This document shows, piece by piece, positions 1,365-34,431 of a stretch of DNA of 35,741 nt. A program made the translations under genes and the position numbers. The stretch is from Candidatus Methylomirabilota bacterium (GTDB lineage Bacteria; Methylomirabilota; Methylomirabilia; Rokubacteriales; CSP1-6). The first letter of the stretch is position 1, and each line of letters opens with the position of its first letter. The stretch spans positions 1-35,741 of the forward strand of contig DASYUQ010000061.1 in assembly GCA_036001065.1 (NCBI GenBank). Direction: 5' to 3'. Under the pieces are notes generated by a model. That model was not told the origin of the DNA. It searched no databases and saw nothing but the letters and a program-made list of their open reading frames with translations.

Positions 1365-2558
1365 CTACTCGATGACGCCTTTCTCGCGGAGCCGCCCGAT
1401 GTCGGCGGCGGAGAGCCCGAGGTCCTTCAGGACGTTCTCGGTGTGCTCGGAGGGCAGGGGCGCGGCGCTCCGGATCGCGCCGGGCGTGTCGGAGAGCTTG
1501 ATGGCGACGCCGACCTGTCGGACGCGCCCGTGTTTCGGGTGCTCGACGTCCACGATCATCCGCCGGTGGTTGAGCTGCGGGTCCCGCACCATCTCCTCGA
1601 CCTCGTACACCTTGCCCACGCACACGTCGGCCTTCGTGAGGAGGTCGAACCACTCGTCGCGGTCCCGCGTCCGGATGATCGCCTCGATCTCGCGCCGCGC
1701 CGCCTCCTCCTCGGCGTTGGCGGCGCGCACGAACTGGTCGGGCTTGCGCGCGAACCGCGCGAGCTCCGGGCGGCCGATCGCCTTGCAGAAGTTCTCCCAG
1801 AGCCACGGCTCGGTGCAGCCGATCGTGAGGAGCTTGCCGTCGCGGGTCTCGTAGATCGCGTAGTAGGGGTAGGACCCCCCGAGGAACCCTTCGCCGCGCC
1901 GCGGCGCCAGGCCGTCGCTGAAGAAGAAGCGCATGTTGGGCGTCGCGGCGAGGAGCGAAACCGACGTGTCGAGGTAGGCGACGTCCACGTGCTGGCCGCG
2001 CCCGGTTCGCTCTCGCGCATAGAGCGCGAGGACGATGCCGAGAGCGCCGTGCATTCCGGCGCCGGCATAGTCGGCGACGAGGTTCAGCGGGATGACGGGC
2101 TTGCGGCCAGGCTCGCCGATCAGGCCGAGGACGCCAGCGAGCGAGAGGTAGTTCATGTCGTGGGCGGGGTAGTCCCGGTACGGGCCATCCTGGCCGAAGC
2201 CCGAGAGCGAGCAGTAGACGACGCGCGGGTTCAGCTGGCCGATCGTCGCATAGTCGGCGCCGAGCCGCTTCATGACGCCCGGGCGGAAGCCTTCGACGAC
2301 CACGTCGGCGCTCGCGGCGAGCCTCCTGAAGATCTCCTGCCCGTCGACGGATTTCATGTTCAGCGTCATCGAGCGCTTGTTGCGGTTCGTGAACGTGTGG
2401 ATCGTCCGGCGGACCCAGTCCTCGTCGGCCGGCCGCCCGGGCTCGGGGGTCTCGATCTTCAGGACGTCCGCCCCCATGTCAGCCAGCAGCATCCCGGGGA
2501 ACTCCGCCGGCGGCACTCGCGCCAGCTCGAGAATTTTGATTCCGTCGAGCACGCCCAT
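1365..2558 (-). CDS. CaiB/BaiF family (class III) CoA-transferase
   Basis: The 397-residue product has the length and signature blocks of the family III CoA-transferases, which move CoA between an acyl-CoA and a free carboxylic acid in the cytoplasm. Visible blocks are GIKILELARVPPAEFPGMLL at residues 6-25, the LADMGADVLKIE block at 25-36, NRNKRSMTLNMK at 58-69, and D163 in VADYAGAG, the position of the catalytic Asp. The ATG start at 2558 is preceded by a GAGGAG ribosome site, and the gene lies ten bases after the PrpD-like gene. The combination with PrpD and an MFS carrier suggests activation of a dicarboxylic or methyl-branched acid. The actual substrate is unknown, because formyl-, succinyl-, mesaconyl- and acyl-carnitine-type members look alike at this level. 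Confidence 0.9.
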   Translation of the reverse strand: MGVLDGIKILELARVPPAEFPGMLLADMGADVLKIETPEPGRPADEDWVRRTIHTFTNRNKRSMTLNMKSVDGQEIFRRLAASADVVVEGFRPGVMKRLGADYATIGQLNPRVVYCSLSGFGQDGPYRDYPAHDMNYLSLAGVLGLIGEPGRKPVIPLNLVADYAGAGMHGALGIVLALYARERTGRGQHVDVAYLDTSVSLLAATPNMRFFFSDGLAPRRGEGFLGGSYPYYAIYETRDGKLLTIGCTEPWLWENFCKAIGRPELARFARKPDQFVRAANAEEEAARREIEAIIRTRDRDEWFDLLTKADVCVGKVYEVEEMVRDPQLNHRRMIVDVEHPKHGRVRQVGVAIKLSDTPGAIRSAAPLPSEHTENVLKDLGLSAADIGRLREKGVIE

Positions 2559-2568
2559 GCGCGTCTCC

Positions 2569-3933
2569 TCAGTCAGAGTCGCCCGCGAGCCGCGAGGTGA
2601 GGGCGCGAATGTCGGGGATGTCCTCGAGGTGCGCGAGCTGCTCGGCGACTCCCTCGACCTCGTCGCGCGGCAGGACGAGCGTCGCGCACGCGCGGAACTT
2701 GGCGCGGAGCGCGTCGGGGTTGAGGGGCGTGTCCGGATGCCCGCGCGCCCCGCGCGGCCCGGCCGTGAGCGTGCGCCCGTCCCGCACCCGCACGGTGACG
2801 CGGCTCCACGCGTGCTGCGCGAGCTCGTCCGGGAGCGCCGGATCCACGACCACCGTGATGCGCTCCATGAGGTCGCGCACGGCGTGATTCCGGACCTCGC
2901 CGTCCTCGAACGAGCGAAGGTCCACGCGTCCCTCGGCGAGCGCCGCCGCGGCGCAGAACTGCATCGAGAACTTCCGCTCGAGCGCCGTCGTCGGCCGCGG
3001 GTGGGCGAGGACGTCGGGAACGACGCGGTTCACGGCGACTTCAACAGCCGTCACATCGCGCGGCGTCAGCCCGTGAGCGGCGCGCAGCTCGAGGAGCGAG
3101 TCGATCGCCGAGTGGGTGAGGGCGCACGACGGATAGGGCTTGACCGCGATGCCCGAGGCGAGGAGCTGCCAGGCGCGGCCGAGCCCGTCCAGCGCCGGCT
3201 CGAGCCGCCGGGCGCCTCCGAACGCGGCGACATACCCCTGCTTGCCCTCGAGCGCCGACTCGGATGCGGTCAGCCCCTCGCGGGCGAGCTGCGCGGCGAG
3301 GATCCCGTTCCGCGCCGCGTGCCCCGCGTGGTAGGGCTTGGTCATCGAGCCGAAGTTCTCCTTGAGCCCCGACGCGTGCGTGGCGGCGATCGCGAGGGCG
3401 TGGCGCGTCTGGATCACGTCGAGCCGCAGGAGCCGCGCCGCCGCTGCGGCGCAGCCGAGGGTACCGATCGTGGACGTCGCGTGCCAGCCGCGAGTGTAGT
3501 GCTCGGGATTGAGCGCGGCGCCGAGAGTCGCGCCGACCTCGAAGCCGACGATGTAGGCGAGCGTCACGGCGCGCCCGTCGGCCGTCTCGGCCTCTCCCGC
3601 CGCGAGAGCGGCCGCCAGGAGCGGCACGCTCGGGTGCCCCATCAGCGCGAAGTTTGTGTCGTCGAAGTCGTGCGCGTGCCCGGCCGTGCCGTTGGCGAGC
3701 GCGGCCCACCCGGGGGAGGTTACGAACCGGGTGCCCACGACGGTCGCCAGGGGCGTGCCGCCCTCGGCGCGCGCGACCGCGCGGACGGCGCGCGCGGCGG
3801 GCTCGCCCGCGCCGGCGAGCATCACGCCGAGCGTATCGAGCGCGGCCAGGCGCACGCGGGCGAGCGCTTCGGGCGGGCAGTCCTCGAGCGCGGTCTTGAC
3901 GGCGAACTCCGCGAGCCGGGCCGTGAGGCTCAC
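2569..3933 (-). CDS. MmgE/PrpD family protein
   Basis: This 454-residue cytoplasmic protein belongs to the MmgE/PrpD family (2-methylcitrate dehydratase, cis-aconitate decarboxylase and relatives). Diagnostic segments are the LAALDTLGVMLAGA block near residues 29-42, the NGTAGHAHDFDD block near 96-107 with the family's paired His and Asp residues, and the MTKPYHAGHAARNG block near 196-209. The start is GTG at 3933, only 22 bases from the start of the divergent MBL gene, so promoters for both must lie within or upstream of these genes. It is the first gene of the operon with CaiB and MFS. Dehydratase or decarboxylase activity on a tricarboxylic acid is likely from the family. The particular substrate is open. 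Confidence 0.9.
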   Translation of the reverse strand: MSLTARLAEFAVKTALEDCPPEALARVRLAALDTLGVMLAGAGEPAARAVRAVARAEGGTPLATVVGTRFVTSPGWAALANGTAGHAHDFDDTNFALMGHPSVPLLAAALAAGEAETADGRAVTLAYIVGFEVGATLGAALNPEHYTRGWHATSTIGTLGCAAAAARLLRLDVIQTRHALAIAATHASGLKENFGSMTKPYHAGHAARNGILAAQLAREGLTASESALEGKQGYVAAFGGARRLEPALDGLGRAWQLLASGIAVKPYPSCALTHSAIDSLLELRAAHGLTPRDVTAVEVAVNRVVPDVLAHPRPTTALERKFSMQFCAAAALAEGRVDLRSFEDGEVRNHAVRDLMERITVVVDPALPDELAQHAWSRVTVRVRDGRTLTAGPRGARGHPDTPLNPDALRAKFRACATLVLPRDEVEGVAEQLAHLEDIPDIRALTSRLAGDSD

Positions 3934-25544: not shown

Positions 25545-26121
25545 GCGGCGTCGCGGCCAGCGCCGCCCCCGCGGCGAGGGCCAGGCCGAGCGCGATCCCC
25601 GCCAGCACATCGGAGGGCCAGTGGGCGCGCAGCATCACCCGCGCTGCCGCCACCAGCACCACCGCGCCGAGCGCCAGCCCCCGCACGACCAGGCACGCCC
25701 TCCGGGACGGGAGCGCCCCCGCCAGGTAGACGACGGCGCCGAAGAACGCGGCGGCCGCCGTGGCGTGCCCGCTGGGGAAGCCGAGGGAGGCGTTCTCCGG
25801 CCGCGGCCGGCCGATCGCCTCCTTCAGCATCCACTGGGCGATCGGCGCCGCCACCATCAGCCCGAGCCAGATCCACCAGCGCGCGCGGGCCCGCGTGAAG
25901 ACGACGAAGAGTAGCAGCGTCCCCGGCAGGATCACCCGCCAGTCCCCCGCGTAATTGACCACGCGCATCACCGTCAGCACCGGCGGCGTGGCCCAGGCTA
26001 GCAGCGCGTCGCGGATCGCCGCGTCCATCGGGAGCGTGCCCAGGAGCGCGACGGCGCCCGCCAGCGCCAGGAAGGCGGCGCCGGCCACCAGCAGCACCGC
26101 CCGCGACCGGGGAATGATCAT
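25528..26121 (-). CDS. PAP2-family membrane phosphatase (second copy)
   Basis: This 197-residue membrane protein carries the PAP2 signature: K100 with KX6RP in KEAIGRPRP, PSGH at 116-119 and R161/H167/D171 in AARVMLRAHWPSD. Hydrophobic helices fill the rest. The start at ATG 26121 overlaps the stop of the metal permease gene as ATGA, and that coupling is why I prefer it to longer starts. It converges on the hybrid kinase gene, whose end it overlaps by 17 bases. It is only about as similar to the PAP2 at 6267 as expected for separate family members. Its place as the last gene of a metal-uptake operon may be incidental. It likely dephosphorylates a lipid or undecaprenyl pyrophosphate. Confidence 0.88.
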   Translation of the reverse strand: MIIPRSRAVLLVAGAAFLALAGAVALLGTLPMDAAIRDALLAWATPPVLTVMRVVNYAGDWRVILPGTLLLFVVFTRARARWWIWLGLMVAAPIAQWMLKEAIGRPRPENASLGFPSGHATAAAAFFGAVVYLAGALPSRRACLVVRGLALGAVVLVAAARVMLRAHWPSDVLAGIALGLALAAGAALAATPLSDEG

Positions 26122-26942
26122 CGCCGCCCCATTAGACCACGCATGAACGCCGAGACCGCCAGGAGCGCGAGCCCGAACACGCACACCACCGTGGCCCCGG
26201 TGGGCAGATCGAAGGCGGCCGAGGCGGTGATGCCGACGAGGCTGACCAGCGCGCCCAGGCTCCAGCCCACTCCGAGCTGGCGCCGGATCGATCCGCCCAG
26301 CGCCATGGCGGCCAGGGCGGGAACGATGAGATAGGAGAAGACCAGCAGAACACCAGCGATCCGGACCGAGGTTGTCACCATCAGGCCGAACGACGCGTAG
26401 AAGAGGAAATCCCAGAGGCGCACGCGCCGCCCCGCCCGGAAGGCGGCCTCAGCATCGGTGGAGATCAGGAGCAAGGGACCACGCCACCACCAATGCAGCG
26501 CGCCGATGACGGCATAGAGCAGGCCCACCTTGAGCACCTCGCTCCCGCTCACCGTGAGGATGTTGCCGACGAGCATGGTCCGGAGATGCTCGGTGCCGTG
26601 AGGGGCCCCGGCGACGAGCAGCACGGTCGCCGCCGCCGATACCGCGTAGACGACCCCGATCACGGCTTCCTGCGAGATCCGGCGCTCCCGGGTGCGGGTG
26701 AGCGCGAGGACGAGGGCTCCGGCCAGAGTGGCGCCGAGCCCGGAGAAGTAGGACACCCAGGAATCGAGCTCGAAGCCCAGCAGAAACGCCGCGGTGGCGC
26801 CGAGGGCCGCGATCTGGGCCAGCGCGATGTCGACGAAGACGACCTCCCGCGCGATCACGTGGAGGCCCAGGTAGGCGTGGAGGCCGGTGAGGACCAGGCA
26901 CATCAGGAACGGCGCCCACAGGAGCGAAAAGAGATCGCTCAC
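26118..26942 (-). CDS. Metal ABC transporter permease (ZnuB/MntB type)
   Basis: This 274-residue inner-membrane protein has the order of hydrophobic helices and the loops typical of the zinc/manganese ABC-3 permease family. Matching blocks are LHVIAREVVFVDIALAQIAAL near residues 27-47, ERRISQEAVIGVVYAVS near 86-102, and VRIAGVLLVFSYLIVPALAA near 198-217. Start GTG at 26942 overlaps the stop of the binding-protein gene as GTGA. The permease needs an ABC ATPase, yet no such gene is present in this window. It and the binding protein at 26939-27850 form the uptake pair. Zinc, manganese or iron is possible. Confidence 0.9.
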   Translation of the reverse strand: MSDLFSLLWAPFLMCLVLTGLHAYLGLHVIAREVVFVDIALAQIAALGATAAFLLGFELDSWVSYFSGLGATLAGALVLALTRTRERRISQEAVIGVVYAVSAAATVLLVAGAPHGTEHLRTMLVGNILTVSGSEVLKVGLLYAVIGALHWWWRGPLLLISTDAEAAFRAGRRVRLWDFLFYASFGLMVTTSVRIAGVLLVFSYLIVPALAAMALGGSIRRQLGVGWSLGALVSLVGITASAAFDLPTGATVVCVFGLALLAVSAFMRGLMGRR

Positions 26943-27850
26943 CGGAGCGCCTCGGCCAGTGCCCGGACGTTGTGGTCGATGAGGTCGAGGTAGGAGTCGA
27001 TGCCCTTGATGCCGCCGACTGCCGACGGTAGCACCAGGGTCCGGGCGCCGCTGTCGCGGGCGACCAGCTCGACGACCTTTCGGTCCGCGTAGGGCTCGGC
27101 GACGATCACTTTGATCTTCTGCTCGCGGATGGTGCGGATCAGCTCGGCCAGATGGGCCGGCGAGGGTGGGATGCCCGGCCGGTCCTCGATGGCGCCGGCC
27201 AGCTCAAGGCCGAAGCGCCGCAGGAAATAGTTGAACGTCTCGTGATAGGTGACGACCTTGGCGCCACGGTAGGGCTCGAGCGTCTTCTGCCAGCGTGCCA
27301 TCGCCGCCTCCAGCCGCCCCAGGAACTCGCGGCGCTGCGTCTCGAACAGAGGCCCGTGCTGGGGCGCGACCCGCCGGAGCCCCTCCACGATGTTTGCGGT
27401 GACGACTCCGGCGTTGGCGGGGTCGAGCGTGTAGTGTGGGTCGCCCTCGGGGTGGACATCACCGCGCGAGCGGTCGATCGGTCCCTTCGGAGGAATGACG
27501 GCCACGCCGCGGGAGGCGTCGACGTAGCCGGCAGTGCCGGGCAGGATACGCGCGTTGTGGGCGCCCACCACGAGGGGCTCGACCCAGTAGTCGAGACCGA
27601 GCCCGTTGCGCACGAGGAGGTCTGCATGGCGGAGCTTGAGCATGAGACTGGGCCGCACCTCGACATCGTGCGCGTTCTGGGTTCCTCGGACGAGACTGAC
27701 GACGTCCACCAGATCGCCGCCCACGGCGTCGGTGAGCGCCTTGAGGTCGGGGGTGGAGGCCACGCTCCGGACCTTGGCCGCGGCCTCGCCCCCGGTCGCG
27801 AGCCCGAGGGCGAGCAGGACAGCGGTCAGCGTGAGGATCGATCGCCCCAT
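26939..27850 (-). CDS. Periplasmic metal-binding protein (ZnuA/cluster A-I type)
   Basis: This 303-residue periplasmic protein has a signal peptide (MGRSILTLTAVLLALGLATG) and the cluster A-I metal-binding fold. Candidate ligands are H61 in NAHDVEVRPS, H139 in DPHYTLDPANA and H203 in YHETFNYFL; the fourth position normally holds Asp or Glu, and the LPSAVGG stretch at 274-280 has no acidic residue. The long His-rich loop of classic ZnuA is reduced to a short segment. ATG 27850 follows a strong GGAGGAGGAG site. It passes metal to the permease that follows. Zinc or manganese is favoured; copper is possible from the neighbourhood. Confidence 0.88.
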   Translation of the reverse strand: MGRSILTLTAVLLALGLATGGEAAAKVRSVASTPDLKALTDAVGGDLVDVVSLVRGTQNAHDVEVRPSLMLKLRHADLLVRNGLGLDYWVEPLVVGAHNARILPGTAGYVDASRGVAVIPPKGPIDRSRGDVHPEGDPHYTLDPANAGVVTANIVEGLRRVAPQHGPLFETQRREFLGRLEAAMARWQKTLEPYRGAKVVTYHETFNYFLRRFGLELAGAIEDRPGIPPSPAHLAELIRTIREQKIKVIVAEPYADRKVVELVARDSGARTLVLPSAVGGIKGIDSYLDLIDHNVRALAEALR

Positions 27851-27864
27851 GATTCTCCTCCTCC

Positions 27865-29238
27865 TCAGAAGGGATGCGGCGGGTGCGCGCCCAGGAAAAA
27901 GGTCGCTTGAAGGAAAATTTCGTCGGCGATCCGGGCGCTGGCGTCGTTGGCCGAGAACAACTCGCGGCGATCGCGCTCGGTGCGCTTGTAGCCGAGCCGG
28001 AAGCGTAGGAAGTCGGAGAGCATGAAGGCGAGATAGGGCTCGATCGCCCACTCGCGCCCGGGATCTTCCAGGAGCTGCGTGGAGTCGTAGCGCAGGCCGG
28101 CCACCCAGCGCCGCCAGGGCTGCACCTCGCCGTAGGCGTACCAGCCAAAGCGCCGGCGGCTGTCGATCTCCTCGTCCTCTTGGACCCGGCGGAACGACCA
28201 GATCCCCTCGCTGGCCAGAGTCAGCAGCGGGTGGCGCCAGCCCTCCGGGGTCAGCTTGTACTTGACGTCGTAGCCGGCGAAAGTCTGGCGTCGCCGCGCC
28301 TCCGTCTGGCCGCTGGCGGCGGAGGCCCCCAGTTGAATGGCGCCGAGATCGCCGAGCTCGAAGAACGTCCGCAGTCGCCCCGTGGCCAGTGGCGTCTTGA
28401 GGCTGCCCCGGCCGAACGCCTCCTCGTTGTCGCCGTTGAACACCCCGACCAGCGCCTCCAGATAGAACGGCAGCGGCGGGACCCACGTCAGCTCCACCCC
28501 GCGCTCCACCAAGCCCTCCTCGCCCAGGAAGCGCGTCAGCACGTTCGGAACGTCGGGCTGCGGCAGGGCCTCGCGATGGCGCTCGTTGAGGAGGCCGAAG
28601 CGGTTGCGCATCTGCCCCGCCTTGAGCTGGGTGCCGAAGGGCAGCGTGAGCAGCGTGAGGTGGGCTTCCGCCAGACCGACCTCGGTCACGCGCTCGCCGT
28701 CCTCGAACTCCTCGGCGGCCTCCAGCCTGACCTCACCGCGGGCGAACGGGTCGATCTGGCCGAAGAGCTGCAGCTCGACCTCGCGCGGAAAGAAGCGGTT
28801 CTCCCGGCCGGCGAAGGATCCGGCGTCGGCCTTGTCGATGTTGCGCTGCGTGATGTTGCCGATGAAGTCGGCGACCACGCCGATATCGAACAGCAACCGG
28901 CCCCCCTGGGTCCGCTCAGCGAGCGAGAACGGGGGCCGAGGCGTTACGTAGTCGCGCAGGCTGGGCTGGGGCGAGGGCGCCGGGCCGGCCGGTGCCTGGA
29001 CGACCGCCGGCGGGGCGGCCGCGGCCCGGGGCTGCGCCGCGATACGCTGGAGCCGTTCGGCCATCACCCCCATCGCCTTTTCGTACTCCTGCCTGACGCG
29101 CTCGAACTGCTGGCGCATCTGCTCCAGATCCCGGCGGAGACTTTCCGTCTCCCCCCGGGGATCCGCGGGTTGCTGCGCGAGAGCGGGTGCCGCCAGCGCG
29201 AGGCCGAGCAGCACGCACACGACGACGAAGACTCGCAT
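27865..29238 (-). CDS. Porin-like outer membrane protein with N-terminal coiled coil
   Basis: A 457-residue protein with signal peptide (MRVFVVVCVLLGLALAAPALAQ) begins with a coiled-coil segment (about residues 25-70) and an Ala/Pro linker (about 70-105), then alternating beta-strand-like stretches rich in aromatic and acidic residues. It ends in ATFFLGAHPPHPF with a terminal Phe, as outer membrane barrels often do. ATG 29238 is chosen over 29244, because the GAGAGGAG site ends exactly at 29244 and would leave no spacer. It sits 14 bases upstream of the metal-binding protein gene. It resembles the porin-like proteins encoded near zinc or other metal uptake genes; admission of metal across the outer membrane is inferred. 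Confidence 0.75.
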   Translation of the reverse strand: MRVFVVVCVLLGLALAAPALAQQPADPRGETESLRRDLEQMRQQFERVRQEYEKAMGVMAERLQRIAAQPRAAAAPPAVVQAPAGPAPSPQPSLRDYVTPRPPFSLAERTQGGRLLFDIGVVADFIGNITQRNIDKADAGSFAGRENRFFPREVELQLFGQIDPFARGEVRLEAAEEFEDGERVTEVGLAEAHLTLLTLPFGTQLKAGQMRNRFGLLNERHREALPQPDVPNVLTRFLGEEGLVERGVELTWVPPLPFYLEALVGVFNGDNEEAFGRGSLKTPLATGRLRTFFELGDLGAIQLGASAASGQTEARRRQTFAGYDVKYKLTPEGWRHPLLTLASEGIWSFRRVQEDEEIDSRRRFGWYAYGEVQPWRRWVAGLRYDSTQLLEDPGREWAIEPYLAFMLSDFLRFRLGYKRTERDRRELFSANDASARIADEIFLQATFFLGAHPPHPF

Positions 29239-29325
29239 GGCCATCTCCTCTCAGCGAAGGTTGTGGGCGCTTCGCCGGAGGCGCACGGACCTCCGGCGCC
29301 GGGACCTCAGGACGCGGGAGAGCGA

Positions 29326-29634
29326 CTAGCGGAGAGGCGGCGCGCGGGAGTCGGAGTGCCGCCGCGGTTCGGAGGCGGGGCGGGCGGCATCGAGAGCGAG
29401 CTCCGGGACGACGACGACGGCGACGACCAGCGCCGCGGCTTCGGGAAGCGGCGCCACGCCGCCCAGCGCGGCCAGGTAGCTAAGATCGTGCTCGTGGTTG
29501 TAGAAGCCGTCCTCGGGCCCGACGTGGACGTGGGGGACATTGGCCGCGCTCAGCAGCACCCCGGCCAGGGCCAGCGTGCACAGCAACGCCGGGACCGGAC
29601 GGCGGACCCAGCGCGCGCAGCGGGACGGGATCAT
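29326..29634 (-). CDS. Small His-rich membrane protein
   Basis: A 102-residue frame from ATG 29634 (GTG 29655 is possible) shows a hydrophobic N-terminal helix (residues 13-32) followed at once by NVPHVHVGPEDGFYNHEHDL, which holds four His and several acidic residues on the outer side of the membrane. A second hydrophobic stretch (about 50-75) and a Pro/Arg-rich tail follow. Its place between the metal-binding/porin genes and the cytochrome c-P19 fusion, and the H-x-H and H-E-H-D pattern, suggests a periplasmic metal-binding accessory. No known family is assigned. No strong ribosome site is visible, so expression is uncertain. Confidence 0.6.
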   Translation of the reverse strand: MIPSRCARWVRRPVPALLCTLALAGVLLSAANVPHVHVGPEDGFYNHEHDLSYLAALGGVAPLPEAAALVVAVVVVPELALDAARPASEPRRHSDSRAPPLR

Positions 29635-29671
29635 GTCGCGCGCGAAGAATAGCACACTGGCCGGCGTGACC

Positions 29672-30664
29672 CTACTCGAAGACCGCCGTGACAGGCTTCT
29701 TGAACCGCCCTTTGGCCCCGCCGGTTACTTGCATGGCCGTGGCGCCGATCGAGAGCGCGATCTTCTGGGTACCCTCGGGGAGGGCCAGGCTCGCCCCGTA
29801 GTGGAAGCCACGATCGCTCACCATGGGCGCGAGCTTCACCGTCCGCGGTGGACGGCCTGGCGTGTGCACGATCGCCGTCACCGGCAGATAAGGGACCGGC
29901 TCGTTGAACTCACGGTCGGTGATAAACGCCATGAGGTGCCCTGGGGCTGCCGTCGCGCTGGGGGATGCGCCGTGCGCCCCGGAGTGACCGTCCCCGTGGG
30001 GAGTGCTGGCGCCGGGCTCGTAGACGATCCGGATCCGGTAGTCGCCAGCGACCTGCGAGCGCTCCACCCCGCGCCCATGGGGCGGAGCATCGCCGCCCTC
30101 GGTCAGGCTCTTGAGGTAGGCCACCAGGTCCACCCACTGGGCGAGGGAGAGGCTGTCGGCGAAGCTCGGCATGATCGACAGCCCGTCGGGACCCGTGAAG
30201 CCCGGCCCTTCGACGATGACGTGGTTGGGCGCCAGGATCGACTCGGCGAGGTACTCCGCGGGATGCGCGGCGCCCATGCCGGTCAGATCAGGGCCGACGC
30301 TCTTCGGGTCACCACCCGATGGCGGAAAGCTCTCGCCCTTAATCGCGTGGCACTTGAAGCACTCGAGGTCCTGGAAGAGCTGGCGTCCCTTCGCCGCGTC
30401 GCCCGGCGGCACCGCGAACTGCCAGCCGCGCGGCACGCCGCCCCCGCGGTGCACCTCCTCCATCGTCAGGCGCCGTGGCGGCCGAACGCCGGGGGCCGCC
30501 GGGGGCCTGGTCCTGTCAGTAGGCCCGGGGCTGTGAGCACCGTGGCCGCCGCCCTGCGGCGCCTCGGCGTGGACGACGGCCCCGGCCACCACGCCGAGCG
30601 GCACGATCCCCAGCGCCATCGCGACGAGTCCAACCCGGATTCGCGTCGTCGTTCCACTTCGCAT
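29672..30664 (-). CDS. Cytochrome c fused to a P19/Tp34-like metal domain
   Basis: A 330-residue exported protein has a membrane/signal helix (about residues 10-32), a His-rich linker, and a class I c-type cytochrome with CFKCH (C102, C105, H106) and likely axial M165 in SIMPSF. Its C-terminal domain (about 205-330) reads YLPVTAIV, LAPMVSDRGFHYGASL and IALSIG, which matches the P19/Tp34 family of periplasmic iron/copper-binding proteins, including M281 and H288 as candidate ligands. In other bacteria, P19-type proteins work with iron permeases and cytochrome or ferredoxin partners. Fusion to a cytochrome could couple metal oxidation state change to electron transfer. It lies 37 bases from the His-rich protein gene and 52 from the beta-propeller gene. 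Confidence 0.78.
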   Translation of the reverse strand: MRSGTTTRIRVGLVAMALGIVPLGVVAGAVVHAEAPQGGGHGAHSPGPTDRTRPPAAPGVRPPRRLTMEEVHRGGGVPRGWQFAVPPGDAAKGRQLFQDLECFKCHAIKGESFPPSGGDPKSVGPDLTGMGAAHPAEYLAESILAPNHVIVEGPGFTGPDGLSIMPSFADSLSLAQWVDLVAYLKSLTEGGDAPPHGRGVERSQVAGDYRIRIVYEPGASTPHGDGHSGAHGASPSATAAPGHLMAFITDREFNEPVPYLPVTAIVHTPGRPPRTVKLAPMVSDRGFHYGASLALPEGTQKIALSIGATAMQVTGGAKGRFKKPVTAVFE

Positions 30665-30716: not shown

Positions 30717-31688
30717 TCAGCGCGGCCGGAGCGCCATGCCGTGGGGCGCTTTGCCCACGGAGATCGTCCGGACCTCTTTGTGGCTGGCGAGGTCGATGAC
30801 GGCCACCGCGTCGGCCCAGCGGTTGGTCACCAGGGCGTACCGGCCGTTCGGCTCCATCGTCACCAGGTCCGGATACCCCCGCTGGGGGATGGTGGCGACG
30901 ATCTTGCCGTCGGCCGTGCGGATGACGACCACCTTGTTGGTCTTGCGCAGCGTCGCGTAGAGGAACTTGCCGTCGAGGGTGAGCGTGGCCTCGTGGACGA
31001 CGCCGGGCAGAGCGATCTCCCCGCCGACGCGGCTGGTCGCCGTGTCGATCTTGAGGATCGCCTTGTTCTCGCCGGCGGCGGCGTAGAGCGTCTTGCCGTC
31101 GGCCGACAGCGCGAGCCCCATGGCATCGCCGCCGCCGTGGACGATCCGCCCGACGACCGCGCGGGTTGCGGTGTCGATCACCGTCACGTCGCCGGCCGTC
31201 TCGCCGGACACGTAAAAGATCCGGCCGTCGCGGGTGAAGATGCCGTGGGCCGGCCAGGTGGAGACTTCGATGCGTCCCTCCACGCGCTCGGCCTTGAGGT
31301 CGTAGATGATCACCGCGTCGCTGCTGGTCTCACTCGACCAATCGAGCACGTAGAGATAGCGGCCGTCGGGGGTGAAGGCGAGGTTGTAGGGGTTGCCGCC
31401 GATCTTCACCCGCTTGACGAGCTTGCGGGTGTCCGGGTCCACGATCCCCAGATCGCGACTCTTGTCGTAGACGACCCAGGCGAGCTTGCCGTCCGGCTGG
31501 AAGACGATGCGGTTGGGCTTGCCCCGGCCGAGCGGGATGGCGCCCACCACTTCGAGCGTGGTCGTGTCGATGACGGAGATCGAGTCGGATTTCGTGTTGG
31601 TGACGAAGAGGGTGGCCGCGGCCGCCGGCCCCGCGGCCAGGGCGGCGGTCCAGGCGGCGACGACAATCAGGGCGATCCGCGATGTCAC
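30717..31688 (-). CDS. YVTN-type beta-propeller protein
   Basis: This 323-residue protein has a signal peptide (residues 1-24, ending in AAAA) and seven or so repeats of the pattern of a YVTN beta-propeller, such as LFVTNTKSDSISVIDTTTLE, YLYVLDWSSETSSDAVIIYD and YALVTNRWADAVAVIDLASH. It would be periplasmic. Such propellers serve as scaffolds or as partners of cytochromes and copper proteins; the sequence shows no catalytic residues. GTG at 31688 follows an AGGAGG site. The gene lies 13 bases after the CusF-like gene, in the copper/redox run. Its partner is not evident from sequence. Confidence 0.85.
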   Translation of the reverse strand: MTSRIALIVVAAWTAALAAGPAAAATLFVTNTKSDSISVIDTTTLEVVGAIPLGRGKPNRIVFQPDGKLAWVVYDKSRDLGIVDPDTRKLVKRVKIGGNPYNLAFTPDGRYLYVLDWSSETSSDAVIIYDLKAERVEGRIEVSTWPAHGIFTRDGRIFYVSGETAGDVTVIDTATRAVVGRIVHGGGDAMGLALSADGKTLYAAAGENKAILKIDTATSRVGGEIALPGVVHEATLTLDGKFLYATLRKTNKVVVIRTADGKIVATIPQRGYPDLVTMEPNGRYALVTNRWADAVAVIDLASHKEVRTISVGKAPHGMALRPR

Positions 31689-31701: not shown

Positions 31702-32067
31702 TCACGGGATCCTTTCGACCGCCGTCACCAGCACGTCGGGCGGCGTCCCGCGCACGGTAAATCGTACCGCGTCTCCGACCTGGAGTCCGTCGTAAATCTT
31801 GGGCGAGGCGGCGCGGAATCCCATCGTCATGGGCGCCATGTAGCCGGGGATCTCCTCGTGGCTCAGGACCATGAGGTTGATGTCGGGCAGGATGGCGCGC
31901 ACGACGCCCCGGACCCGCCACTCCCGCTCTCCGACCGCCGGCGCCGCTCGGGCCTGCCCGAGCTCGCGCTCGAGCCGCTCCGCCCGGCGTCCCCACCAGA
32001 GGTAGCCCCCGCCGATGCCCAGGGCCAGGGCCAGGTTGACCAGGAGCACGACCTTCCAGAGCCGCAT
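31702..32067 (-). CDS. Membrane-anchored CusF-like copper-binding protein
   Basis: A 121-residue protein has an N-terminal anchor helix (residues 5-25, ending in YLWWG), a short coiled-coil-like stretch with ERLERELGQAR, and a CusF-type OB fold (about 50-121). The metal-binding features are H70 in LSHEEIPG, with M77, M80 and M82 in YMAPMTMGF, and the usual GLQVGDAVRFTV. CusF family members bind Cu(I) and hand it to an efflux or assembly system. ATG 32067 shares one base with the previous stop (TGATG), so translation is coupled to the CopD fusion gene. The anchor resembles that of the small protein at 10587-10856. The usual Trp that stacks on the copper is not clearly seen. Confidence 0.82.
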   Translation of the reverse strand: MRLWKVVLLVNLALALGIGGGYLWWGRRAERLERELGQARAAPAVGEREWRVRGVVRAILPDINLMVLSHEEIPGYMAPMTMGFRAASPKIYDGLQVGDAVRFTVRGTPPDVLVTAVERIP

Positions 32068-34059: not shown

Positions 34060-34431
34060 TCACGGCGCGATGTTGAAGCTGAACTCGCCTCGGGTGACGT
34101 GGGTGTCCACGGACACGACGCGCCAGATCACCCTGTAGGTGCCGGCTGGCAGCGGAGAAAGCGTGATGCGGAGCAGGGCAGGGTTGTCGGCATCCACGCG
34201 GCCGTCGCCCCGATCGACCGGCCGGCCGTCCGCAGCGACGACCCGAACGGTGCTGAAGGCCGGCTCGAGATTTTCGGTGAACCAGAGCTTGACCTCGCTC
34301 GGCGCCGTCCTCACCGTGCTGCCCGCCCGCGGGTCGGCCCGATCGAGAACCGCGTGAGCGCTCGCCCCCGGGGCCGCGGAGAGGAGGGCGGTCAGAGCCA
34401 GGCTCGCGGCGGCGATCATCCGCTCCGTCAT
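34060..34431 (-). CDS. copC: CopC-family periplasmic copper protein
   Basis: The 123-residue product has a signal peptide ending APGASA, so the mature protein starts with His (HAVLDRADPRAGS). This His, with the Asp/His pair in VSVDTHVTRGEFSF near the C-terminus, makes the Cu(II) site known in CopC. The EVKLWFTENLEP strand is typical of the family. It is a periplasmic copper carrier that feeds a CopD-type protein, which is encoded directly downstream. ATG 34431 is only 39 bases from the divergent HAD gene, and a perfect 10-base palindrome ATCGGCCGAT (34430-34439) covers its start codon and could be an operator. No strong ribosome site is visible. Confidence 0.88.
   Translation of the reverse strand: MTERMIAAASLALTALLSAAPGASAHAVLDRADPRAGSTVRTAPSEVKLWFTENLEPAFSTVRVVAADGRPVDRGDGRVDADNPALLRITLSPLPAGTYRVIWRVVSVDTHVTRGEFSFNIAP

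Follow-up and report, generated by a model that had tools for sequence, protein, structure and literature searches.

The closest described systems fall into several groups. Proteins of the P19 superfamily include P19 of C. jejuni, FetP of uropathogenic E. coli, FtrA, Tp34 and HftA; in P19, an acidic Mn/Fe site made up of Glu3, Glu44, Asp46 and Asp92 is located about 7 Å from the copper site (PMC9174327). H. pylori CrdA and CopC/PcoC have short Ig-like copper domains and are encoded in copper loci; in CrdA the proposed site is a His-free, Met-rich loop (PMC9182242). CopD-cytochrome c fusions are found in the same phylum as the sequence considered here. Finally, PDB entry 2l4d is named after a Sco-cytochrome c fusion protein, presumably a thioredoxin-fold Sco copper domain joined to a mono-heme cytochrome c.

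The gene described here is on a 35,741 nt stretch of Candidatus Methylomirabilota DNA (the window; contig DASYUQ010000061.1), and encodes a cytochrome c fused to a P19/Tp34-like domain (Table 1). With P19, FetP, FtrA, Tp34 and HftA it shares the fold of that domain, the His-Met-His of the copper site, and the PMV..HYG motif; unlike them it includes a cytochrome c, lacks the iron-site acids and the C-terminal ligand His, has a shorter domain with a His-bearing loop, and belongs to a cop operon rather than an FTR1 operon. The short Ig-like domain in a copper locus recalls CrdA and CopC/PcoC, but CrdA is a weak structural match and is not a cytochrome. As in the Sco-cytochrome c fusion, a copper-chaperone-type domain is tethered to a cytochrome (the cytochrome parts being weakly similar, E 0.03), but there the copper domain is Sco and in the Rokubacteria fusion it is P19. 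The CopD-cytochrome c fusions have the same cytochrome module and the same copper pathway, with a membrane CopD in place of the soluble P19-like domain. No description of a cytochrome c-P19 fusion was found in the open literature searched; the individual domains are already known, and their combination is apparently new.

Table 1. The fusion gene, its predicted domains and residues, and neighboring genes (window positions).
Feature	Position	Strand	Basis
Cytochrome c-P19-like fusion gene, 330 aa	29672..30664	minus	ORF, start 30664; two Pfam domains; 22 aligned orthologs
N-terminal Sec-type signal peptide, residues 1-35, putative AEA cleavage site	30560..30664	minus	Sequence inspection
Mono-heme cytochrome c domain, residues 88-188	30101..30403	minus	Pfam Cytochrom_C 90-187, E 1.8e-11
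Heme attachment motif CFKCH, residues 102-106	30347..30361	minus	C102, C105, H106 invariant, 22/22 orthologs
Met165, predicted sixth heme ligand	30170..30172	minus	Invariant, 22/22 orthologs; role inferred from class I cytochrome c fold
P19/Tp34-like beta-sandwich domain, residues 199-330	29675..30070	minus	AlphaFold2, Foldseek, hmmsearch Tp34 1.4e-6
Low-confidence His-containing loop within P19-like domain, ~residues 217-241	29942..30016	minus	Sequence; pLDDT about 50
His243 = FetP His44, predicted copper site	29936..29938	minus	Gapless register with HLE of standalone P19-like L029; His 17/22
Met245 at FetP Glu46 position (iron-site acid)	29930..29932	minus	Met 17/22, acid 0/22
Met281 = FetP Met90 / P19 Met88, predicted copper site	29822..29824	minus	Met 17/22; hhalign register
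His288 = FetP His97 / P19 His95, predicted copper site, in GFHYG	29801..29803	minus	His 19/22; hhalign register
YVTN/YncE-type beta-propeller, upstream neighbor	30717..31688	minus	Pfam YNCE 4.5e-28, NCBIfam beta_rpt_yvtn; adjoins fusion in several orthologous operons
CusF-like periplasmic copper protein	31702..32040	minus	Pfam CusF_Ec 1.8e-13
CopD-cytochrome c-AhpC/TSA redoxin fusion, 661 aa	32067..34052	minus	Pfam CopD 4e-24, Cytochrome_CBB3 2.2e-13, AhpC-TSA 3e-6
CopC copper-binding protein	34060..34422	minus	Pfam CopC 3.9e-25
Downstream block: porin-like 27865-29244, ZnuA 26939-27841, ABC-3 permease 26118-26942	26118..29244	minus	Pfam ZnuA 1.8e-55, ABC-3 5.2e-31

The protein is apparently exported, judging from what looks by eye like a signal peptide (an Arg in the N-terminus, a hydrophobic stretch, and A-x-A). 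Both marks of a class I cytochrome c, CxxCH and a distal Met, are present (Pfam 1.8e-11), and all 22 full orthologs, which align over their entire length, keep CxxCH and Met165 unchanged. The linker and loop region has four His in the 330-aa protein, and from 1 to 13 across the orthologs.

Several lines of evidence identify the C-terminal domain. Searched as a whole, the protein matches PF10634 (Iron_transport, “Fe2+ transport protein”) over residues 257-310 with 20.9 bits, just below the cut-off of 21; the C-terminal 144 aa scanned alone reach 23.9 bits, above the cut-off. By Pfam, all 22 orthologs contain Cytochrom_C and 18 contain Iron_transport (E ≤ 0.01). A profile built from 18 homologous domains and run against all PDB chains returned only P19-superfamily matches, the best being Tp34 (1.4e-6). 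The AlphaFold2 model of the P19-like domain alone (pLDDT 87.7, pTM 0.79) was used for a Foldseek search, in which the top 38 PDB chains all belong to the P19 superfamily (Tp34, HftA, FtrA, FetP, P19), with E-values from 7e-7 to 4e-5 and TM-scores of 0.57-0.70 on the query; one of the 38 comes from a designed cage built with a P19-like chain (4nwn). The full-length model likewise placed 38 P19-superfamily chains ahead of all others. The next matches were DUF4426 and CrdA, at E-values about a hundredfold or more weaker, and CrdA (E 9e-4 to 8e-3) was rejected as nearest relative for this reason. A viral structure library gave no meaningful match. Rmsd values are high, at 6-8 Å, with alignments that span loops and insertions; for the modeled domain, then, the fold assignment is firm and the superposition loose. 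The models contain no metal, and the pTM of the full-length one is 0.49, with the relative placement of the two domains of such low confidence that no heme-to-site distance can be taken from it.

The fusion is not peculiar to this assembly. In a search of the phylum the two-domain protein was found in 25 genomes (truncated in two of them), and one further genome, G052, has the C-terminal part only, at a contig end; all belong to one family of the Rokubacteria, a lineage of soil and groundwater. An alignment of the C-terminal domain, compared with 85,000 species genomes, yielded 19 loci, all Candidatus Rokuibacteriota, in a scan that relied on two conserved peptides and could miss distant relatives elsewhere. 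The whole fusion protein used alone as query found nothing among the species-genome contigs, and a plasmid collection gave one weak match, unannotated, from Photobacterium and to the cytochrome part only. Because the same two-domain protein recurs in 25 genomes, the fusion is not a chance event or an assembly artefact. An earlier note on this DNA had read the gene as a CFKCH cytochrome c and a P19/Tp34-like domain in one exported chain, with H243, M281 and H288 as candidate metal ligands, and had named another fold, or an absent site, as grounds for giving this up. The two-domain reading is confirmed across the 25 genomes, PF10634, the PDB profile search and AlphaFold/Foldseek agree on P19 for the C-terminal region, and all three residues are present; neither ground for giving up the reading was borne out.

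At the residue level, the comparison was made with FetP, numbered from its printed sequence (H44, E46, D48, M90, D94, H97, H127). The fusion has H243, M245, F247, M281, R285 and H288 at the first six of these positions; H243 falls in GHLMAF, and M281 and H288 in PMVSDRGFHYG. The register was supported by profile-profile alignment (hhalign) with P19-type proteins that these bacteria also encode as separate chains, in which the PMV..HYG motifs coincide, and by gap-free alignment of the HLM motif with HLE of L029, a short standalone P19-like protein. The three proposed metal residues thus align with H44, M90 and H97 of the FetP copper site, whose His residues we take to be ligands from published structures. 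No equivalent of the fourth ligand, H127, was found in the fusion, so three of the four copper-site residues are present, with the new Met245 alongside. Of the four iron-site acids, the three that were aligned, P19 E44/D46/D92 (FetP E46/D48/D94), are replaced by M245/F247/R285. Across the 22 orthologs an acid is never found at the E46 or D48 positions and in only three at the D94 position; overall these positions hold Met, Phe, and mostly Arg, Gln or Ser. Judged from these alignments, the copper site is mostly kept and the iron site lost.

H243, M281 and H288 are all present in 17 of the 22 orthologs and the complete H-M-M-H set in 16, and GFHYG is among the best-conserved stretches of the domain. 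In five orthologs at least two, and up to all four, of the site residues are missing: in G005 and G045 the site is partly lost, and in G032-G034, one clade in the gene tree, entirely so. As all five still have cop genes nearby, some members evidently do without the site.

In the window, the genes are read on the minus strand in the order CopC, CopD-cytochrome c-redoxin, CusF, YVTN propeller, fusion. The fusion is no more than about 6 kb from the CopD-cytochrome-redoxin gene in 15 of the 25 family genomes, from nine genera (G000, G005-G010, G027, G028, G032-G034, G045, G049 and G056), a count that leaves out G052, where the contig ends at the fusion. Most of these loci also have CusF, CopC and/or the propeller, some with gaps of only a few bases (about 5 in G008). 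In the other 10 genomes (G002, G011, G013-G017, G019, G020 and G042) the CopD protein is on another contig, and several of the fusions share a different setting, with genes that by eye are for thiol peroxidase and molybdate-transport-like or aldehyde-dehydrogenase-like proteins. A single change between linked and unlinked states suffices in the gene tree, with moderate branch support (68/79). The downstream porin-like/ZnuA/ABC-3 block is near the fusion in only a few genomes, among them G033, G052 and G056.

Some neighbors deserve mention in their own right. The CopD-cytochrome c-redoxin protein, in which a membrane copper protein carries two redox domains, is matched at E ≤ 1e-60 in 50 of the family's 57 genomes. 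The propeller is about 70-83% identical across many family genomes, more conserved than its neighbors. A small exported-looking protein with no Pfam match (HVHVGPEDGFYNHEHD; 29326-29655, minus) is also present in G052, a genome of the same genus.

The cytochrome module has other associations. It is fused directly to CopD-like membrane proteins in several genomes (L107, L109-L112, L117 and L118; by Pfam for L107). Without the P19 domain it adjoins CopD in genomes G036 and G037, which makes the P19 domain look as if it had been added to a cytochrome already associated with CopD. In L105 (G012:C310, ORF 2213-3667) it is fused to an OmpA/Pal-type lipoprotein (OmpA 3e-21), possibly as a peptidoglycan-anchored cytochrome, and in L115 (G078:C168, ORF 2776-3801) it follows a secreted domain with no Pfam match. 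The source genome has six heme-copper oxidase subunit I matches and PF01578 cytochrome c assembly genes, which is consistent with a working c-type cytochrome that has a sink for its electrons; System II heme attachment (ResB) was not found there.

The usual place of the fusion in a copper-handling gene cluster makes a copper role probable. That the protein acts in the periplasm as a copper-redox chaperone in the CopC-CopD pathway, its copper exchanging an electron with its own heme, we would put at about even chances; the domains, the fold, the kept and lost site residues and the operon are observed, and from them we infer the copper binding, the electron transfer, its direction and its partners. 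Copper would be bound by the His-containing linker or loop together with H243, M281 and H288, with M245 probably standing in for the lost fourth His and Glu; the two-Met set would favor Cu(I), and the tethered heme c would exchange one electron with the copper in the site. In the likeliest direction, the heme would accept the electron, Cu(I) becoming Cu(II), and pass it on to terminal oxidases; CopC/CopD would then receive the copper in the oxidation state they work with. Almost as likely is the opposite direction, in which the heme reduces Cu(II) before CopD imports it. Two considerations tip the balance slightly toward Cu(I) oxidation: class I cytochromes commonly donate their electrons to oxidases, and a two-Met metal site favors Cu(I). 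Reduction of Cu(II) before CopD uptake would also fit a question raised by the B. subtilis CopC-CopD protein YcnJ: according to a 2026 study, no reductases are known to be associated with it (PMC13344008).

More tentatively, and short of an even chance, the fusion could be a dedicated and hitherto undescribed copper oxidoreductase of the CopC-CopD route: a P19 iron domain re-purposed by conversion of its Glu/Asp site to a His2Met2-type one and wired to a heme, which would set copper valence before membrane transport and link it to the respiratory chain. Copper valence change in CopC/CopD-type import is an open question, and a soluble, single-chain candidate with a colored heme reporter by a P19-type copper site would make it directly testable. 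The fusion would also be a natural experiment on P19, with the copper site largely kept and the iron site removed.

The same copper genes would suit a chaperone or sequestration protein with no coupled redox. Its P19-like domain, together with the His-rich linker, would store copper or pass it on, perhaps to the assembly of cytochrome oxidase, and its cytochrome would be a separate electron carrier or a module for docking to the CopD-cytochrome protein. The module is mobile, being found by itself as well as joined to an OmpA/Pal domain or to CopD, and six heme-copper oxidases need copper; but a heme tethered to a redox-metal site over many genera exceeds what docking needs, and the module is attached to CopD too, so we consider this explanation rather unlikely.

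The earlier note had allowed for either iron or copper as the metal whose redox change is coupled to electron transfer. Its placing of this step before uptake may hold, by way of CopD. The copper half is favored by the site residues and the cop genes; iron is unlikely because the acids are replaced, FTR1 is not linked and the neighbors are copper genes, and iron uptake was rejected as the main reading. A ferroxidase-type protein, as proposed for P19, FetP and FtrA, would use the copper site to oxidize Fe(II), with the heme taking the electron and Fe(III) going to the FTR1 permease. The PF10634 match is in keeping with this, Cu-loaded FtrA from Rubrivivax has been reported able to oxidize Fe(II) in vitro (PMC11966278), and the source genome does have FTR1, on another contig (C53); but FTR1 was never found adjoining the fusion among the loci examined, the iron-site acids are gone, and the seven family genomes with strong canonical P19 matches (G024, G026, G040, G041 and G053-G055), in most of which the contig also has an FTR1 match nearby, all lack the fusion. 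This separation into different genomes is suggestive only, the genomes being related; taken with the rest, a ferroxidase is improbable. Slightly less probable still is a plain electron-carrying cytochrome whose Ig-like domain is structural and whose P19-like site is a remnant, which would account for decay of the site in G032-G034, G005 and G045, where the domain and the operon remain, but not for retention of the H/M/H set in 17 orthologs and of full H-M-M-H in 16, nor for the conservation of GFHYG.

Tandem P19 genes were also seen in FTR1 genomes (L123-L127, L151 and L152). The first copy keeps HLE/PM/HYG; the second has lost these and keeps the His of GRHTD, as if the site were split between the copies.
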